A stretch of 64,000 nucleotides of DNA from Halorarum halophilum. GTDB lineage: Archaea > Halobacteriota > Halobacteria > Halobacteriales > Haloferacaceae. Of the stretch, positions 12,980 to 14,534 are shown one piece after another. The translations under genes and the position numbers were made by a program. The DNA lies in the NCBI RefSeq assembly GCF_013401515.1, contig NZ_CP058529.1:2666001-2730000 (forward strand), given 5' to 3'. How positions within the stretch are numbered: position 1 is the stretch's first letter; each line of letters begins with the position of its first letter. Under the pieces are notes generated by a model. The model was not told the DNA's origin, made no database searches, and was given only the letters and a program-made list of their open reading frames with translations.

Positions 12980-13360
12980 ATGGAACGATACGTCGATGGA
13001 TTCGTCCTCCCGGTCCCGAGCGATAACCTCGATGCGTACCGCGAAATGGCCGACGAGGCGGGAAAGCTCTGGATCGAACACGGCGCTCTCGAGTACTTCG
13101 AAGGCGTCGGGGACGACATGGAGCCGGACATGGACGGCATGTCGGTACGGACGTTCCCCGAGCTCGCGGAAACCGGGGACGACGAGACGGCCGTGTTCGC
13201 GTTCGTCATGTTCGAGTCCCGCGAGCACCGCGACGAGGTCAACGCGAGGGTGATGGAAGACCCCGCGATGGACCCGGATCGATCCGAGGAGGAGATGCCC
13301 TTCGACCCGGAGCGCATGGCCTACGGCGGCTTCCGCTCCATCGTCAACTACAAGGATTGA
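12980..13360 (+). CDS. DUF1428 family protein (YbaA-like, dimeric alpha-beta barrel)
   Basis: A 126-residue protein beginning MERYVDGFVLPVPSDNLDAY and ending GGFRSIVNYKD, which is the complete DUF1428 pattern (R-Y-V-D-G-F-V-x-P-V-P at the start, M-x-Y-G-G-F at the end). Members have a ferredoxin-like alpha-beta barrel fold and no assigned reaction; some are induced by stress in bacteria. The body is acidic with several methionines. It stands alone: a 207-base gap with an inverted CTCGCTCGCTTCGCTCGCG-type repeat lies upstream, and the hairpin-rich gene-free stretch begins directly after its stop. A bacterial origin by transfer is possible but not shown. Confidence 0.85.
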   Translation: MERYVDGFVLPVPSDNLDAYREMADEAGKLWIEHGALEYFEGVGDDMEPDMDGMSVRTFPELAETGDDETAVFAFVMFESREHRDEVNARVMEDPAMDPDRSEEEMPFDPERMAYGGFRSIVNYKD

Positions 13361-13934
13361 CGAACCAGCTCGACGGGTCGACTCGACCCGTGGCTCGATA
13401 CCACTACCGATGCGGCAGCCGGTATTGGGGTGTTCAGAACTACTGGCGAAACGGAAACCACGGTTGGCTACCACGCCTCCTGCGACGTTCGACTGACTCT
13501 CGAGGAGTCATCAGCTCAGCCACCGTGAGTGAGTCGCGATAGGCCCCACCGACGGTAGCCACAGGCGACCGAACTGCAAGCGATGGAGGCGTGGCGCAGC
13601 CACGCCGACCATTGCTCGCGGAATGTTGGCACTGACGAGCGAAGATCGTCTTGCTGCCAGAAACCGACGGTTTCTCGCCGCATTACGGGAAACCTTCGAC
13701 TTCCCGTCAGCAGTGGGGTTCCGGGGAATCCACAGCAACATCAGAACCGCTCCGCGGTTCTGATTAGCAGTCAGAACGCACGCGTTCTGACAGCACGAAC
13801 GGGTTTGCCGGGGTTCGACGAACGAGGCCGAAATTCTCGTGAGCGACCGACGGGAGCGAACGAGAGCACGGAAGACGAACGAAGTGAGTCTTCCGAAGGC
13901 CGAGCGAGGAGCACCCCCCGTCGAAAGAGGTTCT
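13361..13934 (+). repeat. Gene-free region with an array of at least eight short hairpins
   Basis: I find no gene here: open frames in both directions lack the third-position GC bias of neighbours. Instead there is a run of inverted repeats. Those I checked base by base: 13373-13391 (9-bp arms, 1-base centre), 13588-13606 (8-bp, loop gca), 13659-13675 (7-bp), 13685-13707 (7-bp, 9-base loop), 13741-13763 (10-bp, loop tcc), 13771-13790 (9-bp, loop ac), 13835-13865 (6-bp) and 13869-13895 (8-bp). Stems are perfect and spaced by 8-30 bases. The region is AT-richer than its flanks. It may be a structured RNA, a decayed mobile element or a nucleoid/terminator zone. Strand is arbitrary. Confidence 0.7.
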
Positions 13935-14534
13935 CTAGAAGGAAACGTCGGTCTCCATGTCCTCGGTCGCCTCGCGGAGGCCGTCCTCGTGGGCCTCGTC
14001 GGTGAGCCCGCCCGCGAGGTCGGCGTCCGAGAGCAGTTCGGCGAACTCGTCGCGGAAGCGGTCGTTCGCCCGCGTCGACTCCATGTCCGCCTCGACCACC
14101 TCCACGTAGTGGGCTACCGTCGCCTCGTCGGTACCGAACTGGTCGGCGATCTCCTCGAGCGGGATGTTCTCGACGTACATCGACCGCAGGAGCTCCATGC
14201 CGAACGGGGCGTCCCGGTCCGACTCCCGGACCAGGTGGAGATCCATCCGGGCGTCGAACATCTCCTCCTCGTCGGCCTGGAGCTCGGCGGCGATCTGCTC
14301 GTCGGCGGCGTCCTCGTGGTACAGCCGGACGATCGTCTCGAGGTCCTCGTCGTCGAGGTCGGAGGCGAACTCGTACCGCTCGCGCATCGTGGCGATGAGT
14401 TCCCGTACGCGGGCCTCGTCGTCGGCCGATTCGTCAGCCAGCGTGCCGGGCGACTCCTCCTGGCTCTCCGTCACGGTGTCCGACCCGGTCGCATCGATGA
14501 AGATGTCCCGGAGCTCGGCCGTCTTTTCGTCCAT
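13935..14534 (-). CDS. Conserved haloarchaeal helix-turn-helix-like protein (resembles conditioned medium-induced protein 4)
   Basis: A 199-residue, very acidic, soluble protein. The N-terminus MDEKTAELRDIFIDATGSDT and the TVTESQEESPG segment match my memory of the haloarchaeal family annotated as conditioned medium-induced protein 4; this was not checked. Residues about 60-100 (LIATMRERYEFASDLDDEDL, LYHEDAADEQIAAEL) and 120-150 (NIPLEEIADQFGTDEATVAH) look like two helical HTH-type segments, the second with good helix-turn-helix spacing. A regulatory or translation-linked role is a guess. No partner gene is adjacent; the hairpin array follows its 3' end. Confidence 0.75.
   Translation of the reverse strand: MDEKTAELRDIFIDATGSDTVTESQEESPGTLADESADDEARVRELIATMRERYEFASDLDDEDLETIVRLYHEDAADEQIAAELQADEEEMFDARMDLHLVRESDRDAPFGMELLRSMYVENIPLEEIADQFGTDEATVAHYVEVVEADMESTRANDRFRDEFAELLSDADLAGGLTDEAHEDGLREATEDMETDVSF

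Follow-up and report, generated by a model that had tools for sequence, protein, structure and literature searches.

Uptake sequences of the Neisseria and Haemophilus type are dispersed repeats whose inverted arms act as terminators at gene ends. Terminators related to DNA uptake have been described (PMC1852404). REP/BIME elements are extragenic palindromes, built of paired hairpins with unpaired linkers, which form mosaics of variable length at gene ends and occur in tens of copies (PMC3733652, PMC2817692). Descriptions of archaeal termination signals usually present them as plain T stretches: in Haloferax volcanii the intergenic termination sites are T stretches, with a hairpin at most 10 nt upstream at 503 sites, and a T stretch gave 95% termination in vivo (PMC7237163). 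The factor aCPSF1 works with U-tracts (PMC8716108). Here we analyse a haloarchaeal hairpin cluster, and propose that positions 13555-13933 are a copy of a modular gene-end element that most likely serves as a two-way transcription terminator or insulator, a reading to which we give a probability of about 0.5.

The window, that is, the whole 64 kb stretch of the Halorarum halophilum genome analysed, had been reported in a preliminary description to carry an array of perfect hairpins at 13361-13934, at a density far above chance and in a gene-free region that might be a structured RNA, a decayed element such as a TnpB-guide region, or a set of protein-binding sites. The array is real. It comprises six non-overlapping perfect hairpins (arms of at least 6, loops of 2-8) and two with wider loops, ACGGGAA/TTCCCGT at 13685-13707 and CGGAAGAC/GTCTTCCG at 13869-13895, and the consecutive pair singled out earlier was located as claimed, ATCAGAACCGC-tcc-GCGGTTCTGAT at 13740-13764 and GTCAGAACGC-ac-GCGTTCTGAC at 13770-13791. 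Compared with dinucleotide shuffles of 13361-13934, the excess was clear at every arm length: six hairpins versus 1.13±1.08 with arms of at least 6, five versus 0.30±0.51 with at least 7, and four versus 0.07±0.28 with at least 8. The segment ranked first in hairpin density among 635 windows of the same size in the 64 kb, and RNA folding of 13560-13830 gave z = -5.6 on each strand relative to shuffles. It is also intergenic, as reported, with no coding gene called within 13361-13934 and convergent gene calls ending at 13360 (+) and 13935 (-). The plus-strand neighbour (12980-13360) encodes a DUF1428 protein and is not a constant partner of the element, relatives showing other neighbours in its place. 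The minus-strand gene (13935-14534) carries the element, whose GTTC end lies 1 nt from the TAG of the gene. It encodes a conserved 199-aa protein without a Pfam match, a member of an unnamed family present in 54 of the 60 haloarchaeal genomes searched.

The hairpins are ordered modules, and the element proper spans approximately 13555-13933. A perfect palindrome, ACGGGTCGA-c-TCGACCCGT, at 13373-13391, 12 nt 3' of the DUF1428 gene, is outside it; a stretch at about 13519-13545, CACCGTGAGTGAGTCGCG, resembles a decayed second 5' hairpin block. Judged by sequence comparison, the cluster is one diverged copy of a dispersed modular family of haloarchaeal repeats. The 574 bases gave 29 local matches in their own genome and long matches of 77-83% identity in a congener (G002). 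When the copies were compared side by side, the order of the parts was fixed: a 5' block, (CACCAGCAGTnG)TACCGCGAGCGAGG..inner hairpin..GCTCGCGG-nn-TTTTGGCA; then zero to four two-hairpin units; and finally a 3' block, TGAACGGGTTTTgCGGGGG..hairpin..CCCCCGcAAAAGAGGTTC, which is palindromic and bears a T-tract on both strands. Minimal copies have no unit (L034, L036, L046), and the window copy has three. L121 (plus copy) and L125 each show a duplicated 3' terminus, AACCTCTTTTGCGGGGGTCCTGACCT-GAACCTCTTTTGCGG, which gives the impression that a new copy inserted into, or next to, what was left of an older one.

The window copy, on the plus strand, can be followed part by part. Its 5' flank (13555-13572) corresponds by eye, weakly, to the CACCAGCAGTnGTACC lead-in found in copies that are better preserved. 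The 5' hairpin H1, CCGCGAGC..GCTCGCGG elsewhere, occupies 13574-13621, with the inner perfect hairpin GGCGTGGC-gca-GCCACGCC at 13588-13606, and is followed at 13622-13631 by a T-tract and linker that read nnTTTTGGCA elsewhere and have decayed here to aatgTTGGCA. The first two-hairpin unit (13632-13682; ACGAGC..GCTCGT plus GCCAGAAACC..GGTTTCTGGC in other copies) has an eroded first hairpin. Also eroded is the second (13683-13737), TTACGGGAAA..TTCCCGT CAGCA GTGGGGTTCC..GGAATCCAC AGCA, matched by the covariance model of the unit, R2, at G000:C1:2679681-2679738. The third (13738-13795; R2 match at G000:C1:2679739-2679796) is the hairpin pair of the preliminary description, with linkers TTAGCAG and ACAGCA, and its second hairpin is common to one other locus of the same genome. 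The 3' block (13796-13933), CGAACGGGTTTgccgggg..apical hairpins..ccccccgtcgAAAGAGGTTC, is palindromic, with T-tracts on both strands that have decayed here; the 3'-block covariance model, R1, scores it at 57 bits (L047:795-934), with E=2e-4 genome-wide. Its apex holds a second double hairpin, TTCTCGTGAGCG..CGAACGAGAGCACGGAAGACGA..GAGTCTTCCG (13834-13895), itself a dispersed repeat: it also occurs at 2530848, 1759475 and 1918250 of G000:C1, and the same nesting was found in another genus (L148). All three T-tracts of the window copy are worn (TGTT, GTTTG, CTCTTTC), so that this copy may function poorly.

R1 identified some 18 loci in the window's genome. Among 60 relatives it gave 17 matches in G001 and 28 in G002, some of these being pairs from opposite strands of a single locus, as well as 6-9 in each of G020, G006 and G033, and 1-2 elsewhere. 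Only a limited set of candidates is scored in such model searches, and diverged copies may have escaped these counts. The two-hairpin unit reaches much further than the 3' block: R2 found it in 67 of 99 halobacterial genomes, or 60 of 77 when only good genomes are considered, with up to about 49 copies. A pattern search added carriers in Halobaculum gomorrense, H. saliterrae, H. litoreum, Halolamina pelagica, Halolamina rubra, Ca. Halobonum tyrrellensis and Natronobiforma, while its remaining matches, scattered over unrelated bacteria, look like chance. The unit also occurs in a second context, GGTTCGA-hairpin-CGTCA[unit]CATCACGA-hairpin-TCGAACGACAG (L220-L231 in G001; L235-L236 in G000), in arrays that are near-identical in many copies, lie mostly in long gaps between divergent genes, and probably represent a related family with another position preference. 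Inverted units stand at both ends of one 5 kb contig (G063:C36, L237) and units lie near many contig ends of G065; the units belong to repeats that break assemblies and perhaps flank a mobile segment. No description of the family was found in the open literature searched, subscription literature lying outside the scope of the search.

That the region is gene-free was correct, and yet the key fact had been missed: the element starts about 1 nt past the stop codon of gene 13935-14534. This is the rule for the family. We tabulated the gene positions of 87 copies with a simple, purpose-written codon-usage gene finder. The gene adjoining the 3' block pointed into it in 82 of the 87, and in 74 the block lay at most 20 nt from the stop codon of that inward-pointing gene, with a gap of -3 to +5 nt in 59 copies and of 6-20 nt in 15 more. 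The same hairpins thus recur elsewhere in the genome, as had been thought worth checking, not scattered at random but at stop codons instead. Read in the sense direction, the element has the form STOP-n-GAACCTCTTTTGCGGGGG. On its far side we found a convergent gene in 38 copies and the start of a same-direction gene in 44, and since the neighbour on that side often differs, the element belongs to the 3' end of the carrier gene. A TTTT lay within 20 nt of the stop codon at 62 of the 74 element-bearing ends, compared with 2 of 60 gene ends of the window, and the whole 64 kb holds just two occurrences of GAACCTCTTTT when at most one mismatch is allowed. The T-tracts of the opposite strand are kept as well, in 66 of 74 copies at the palindrome and in 60 of 74 after H1.

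When the flanking proteins were grouped, the same carrier genes appeared in different genera. The 2-oxoacid:ferredoxin oxidoreductase beta subunit gene carries the element in six genomes, and other shared carriers are an enoyl-CoA hydratase-family (MenB-like) protein, PhoU, CarA, an aldehyde-ferredoxin-oxidoreductase-like protein and a Cdc48-like ATPase, names assigned in part by reading the protein sequences instead of by domain scan. The carriers have no obvious common function. The gene for the 199-aa protein of the window carries the element in G000, G001, G002, G006 and G033. Assuming 3000 genes, genera g1 and g5 have seven carrier families in common where 0.097 would be expected (P=4e-13), and g1 and g19 have four where 0.058 would be expected (P=1e-7). 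Within these constant sites the sequence itself does not stay the same. Similarity of the 3' block was 0.753 between orthologous loci (n=33) and 0.757 between different loci within one species (n=487); as orthology confers no extra similarity, the sequence turns over in place and the sites persist. One pair of congeners shows a filled and an empty site, a short-chain dehydrogenase gene having the element in G002 and its 89% identical ortholog in G000 lacking it.

Behind several orthologs of the window gene, in other genera (G012, G008) and in two other families (G040, G059), we found a layout with longer T-tracts, STOP-nnACC-TTTTT-hairpin-AAAAA-nCTnnACC-(units)-AAAAAGG-CCGC..GCGG, also written at those orthologs as STOP-ACCTTTTT-hairpin-AAAAA-nCTnGACC-AAAAAGG-CCGC..GCGG; in G008 one two-hairpin unit precisely fills the space that separates the two A-tracts. 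When this layout was searched for with an independent pattern, 26 matches in 13 genomes were obtained, compared with none for the reversed-pattern control. Sixteen of the matches have a same-strand gene upstream, and 15 of these start 2-7 nt past its stop codon; for the other 10 the gene call is on the other strand. As the layout recurs with other letters, the arrangement in which T-tracts oppose each other and two hairpins are present must predate the particular sequence.

The structure of the units itself appears to be under constraint. Covariance analysis had been suggested, and in an alignment of 22 units from eight genomes compensatory changes proved abundant: 96.2% of the pairing cells could pair, and 15 of the 18 stem pairs had changed on both sides. 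The 94 compensatory cells compare with a mean of 31.9±5.0 after shuffling, none of 500 shuffles reaching 94, and with 2-10 cells when the structure was slid by 1-3 columns; the register was that given by RNAalifold. Deriving alignment and structure from one set of sequences biases the result towards the structure, yet this does not account for the size of the effect. Mean majority conservation was 0.86 in the linkers, 0.73 in the stems and 0.49 in the loops. The loops flip between GAA and TTC among copies, and one copy (L032) has its whole 3' hairpin inverted, so that it is complementarity, not the strand, that is kept; in L032 the inner 3' hairpin (1550-1633) is inverted relative to the outer arms. 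In two further copies (L111 and L112, near 1720-1806) both strands score about equally in the model, which suggests the same inversion. Hairpin-templated repair could also yield such inversions and changes, and covariation alone is therefore no proof of a function as RNA. For the structured RNA of the preliminary description this means that selected structure is supported, though an RNA function does not follow.

How might the element work? As a two-way terminator or insulator, it would act from both sides. On the strand of gene 13935-14534, a polymerase leaving the stop codon would meet GAACC-TCTTTT within about 15 nt and then a strong palindrome; in the opposite direction it would meet H1 and TTTT, the optional two-hairpin units, GGGTTTT and then the palindrome again. 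Neither strand is therefore without a T-tract beside a hairpin, an arrangement that would block read-through into, and antisense transcription from, the neighbour. From the sequence we infer that termination would occur at the T-tracts with assistance from the hairpins, and one may guess that the two-hairpin units add a pause or roadblock. Units between the two outer blocks are gained, lost or exchanged, and the blocks in turn are repeatedly overwritten by local versions, the element remaining with the same genes. Against termination, a polymerase coming from the flanking gene would reach the T-tract before the hairpin, the reverse of the order in a bacterial intrinsic terminator. As only some 20-30 genes per genome are carriers, ordinary termination must be independent of the element. 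Termination also leaves unexplained the conserved linkers with freely changing stems, and the occurrence of units in other contexts, mostly between divergent genes.

The turnover would also suit a mobile palindrome, selfish or neutral, akin to REP/BIME or MITE elements, spread to the least harmful site behind stop codons and tolerated there, which we consider a serious candidate but an unlikely one. Mobility is favoured by the dispersal of the copies, by sub-families specific to single genomes, by orthologous copies (0.753) resembling one another no more closely than do paralogs of a single genome (0.757), by the nested insertions and the doubled ends of L121 and L125, and by the filled (G002) and empty (G000) site behind 89% identical genes. 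Recurrence behind the same genes across genera, conserved T-tracts and compensatory stems would be unexpected of tolerated junk, however, no Y1 (IS200/RAYT) transposase was found in the three congeners richest in 3'-block copies, and regular target-site duplication was not seen. A mobile palindrome thus accounts for turnover and nesting but not for persistence at orthologous genes, and both readings may be true together, a mobile palindrome having been domesticated as a terminator. We advance with similar reserve the idea of order-wide, interchangeable two-hairpin modules with conserved linkers and compensated stems, copied or rewritten in place, at gene ends and between divergent genes, by a transposase-free mechanism, with a protein that reads the linkers giving them a common function.

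A 3'-UTR RNA regulator, in which the array is transcribed and mRNA stability or translation is controlled by a protein or sRNA that recognises the linkers (AGCAG, CAGCAT or the complementary words), would explain why linker columns (0.86) are better conserved than stems (0.73) or loops (0.49), why double changes occur in 15 of 18 stem pairs and why hairpin orientation is mostly kept. We think it improbable nevertheless: the T-tract stands before the hairpins in the sense direction, so most sense transcripts might never include them, the GAA/TTC loop flips and the inverted L032 3' hairpin leave neither strand clearly the one that is read, and the carrier genes share no obvious function. The TnpB-guide (omega RNA) region of an IS200/IS605 remnant, which the preliminary description had offered, can hardly be maintained. 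Hairpins in a gene-free stretch would fit it and such elements do exist in haloarchaea, but the copies are tied to the stop codons of unrelated genes, PF07282 (TnpB) had no match in the window's genome while the controls, Haloferax volcanii included, did match, PF01797 (Y1 transposase) had none in G000, G001 or G002, with Haloferax volcanii again among the matching controls, and no Rfam family matched the element above its gathering score. The sole Rfam match was an unrelated C/D RNA elsewhere in L232. A search for tRNA and tmRNA returned none, and a scan for bacterial-type terminators gave none in the window's element. Mobilisation by RAYT/IS200 was rejected, the genus being without a Y1 transposase.

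If the two-way terminator or insulator reading is true, archaeal gene ends would include a composite two-way element besides the usual plain T stretches, and fixed sites with replaced sequence would point to specific positional selection on haloarchaeal gene ends. Many apparently orphan hairpins of haloarchaeal intergenic regions would be accounted for by the element, and its covarying units with conserved linkers would offer concrete bait for a protein or process that reads or copies them.

Set against the described systems, the element resembles in kind the BIMEs, whose extragenic palindromes, paired hairpins, unpaired linkers, gene-end mosaics and copy number it shares, but it fails their defining features. 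Whereas the stem of a REP/BIME is a fixed repeat, here the stem sequence is free to change as long as the change is compensated; conservation lies in the linkers AGCAG/AGCAT, and in place of the GTAG or CGTC tag there is no GTAG head in the usual position, CGTC-like tags being confined to the second type of array. Unlike REP/BIME, too, it has no Y1/RAYT transposase in the genus, keeps a fixed distance to the stop codon and is conserved at orthologous genes across genera. As to a MITE or non-autonomous IS, which would have terminal inverted repeats plus a target-site duplication, the 3'-block ends, GAACnnnTTTT..AAAAnnnGTTC, are inverted repeats, and the filled and empty pair is without a clean duplication. 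The bacterial intrinsic terminator, a hairpin and then a T-tract in the direction of the gene, is matched only by H1, on the other strand, and unlike uptake-sequence terminators the element has arms that are not one fixed word. With archaeal U-tract terminators, with aCPSF1/FttA (PMC7237163, PMC8716108), it shares T-tracts just 3' of the stop codon and hairpins nearby; unlike them, it is composite, combining T-tracts on the two strands, a shared palindrome and interchangeable hairpin units that loci and species have in common.
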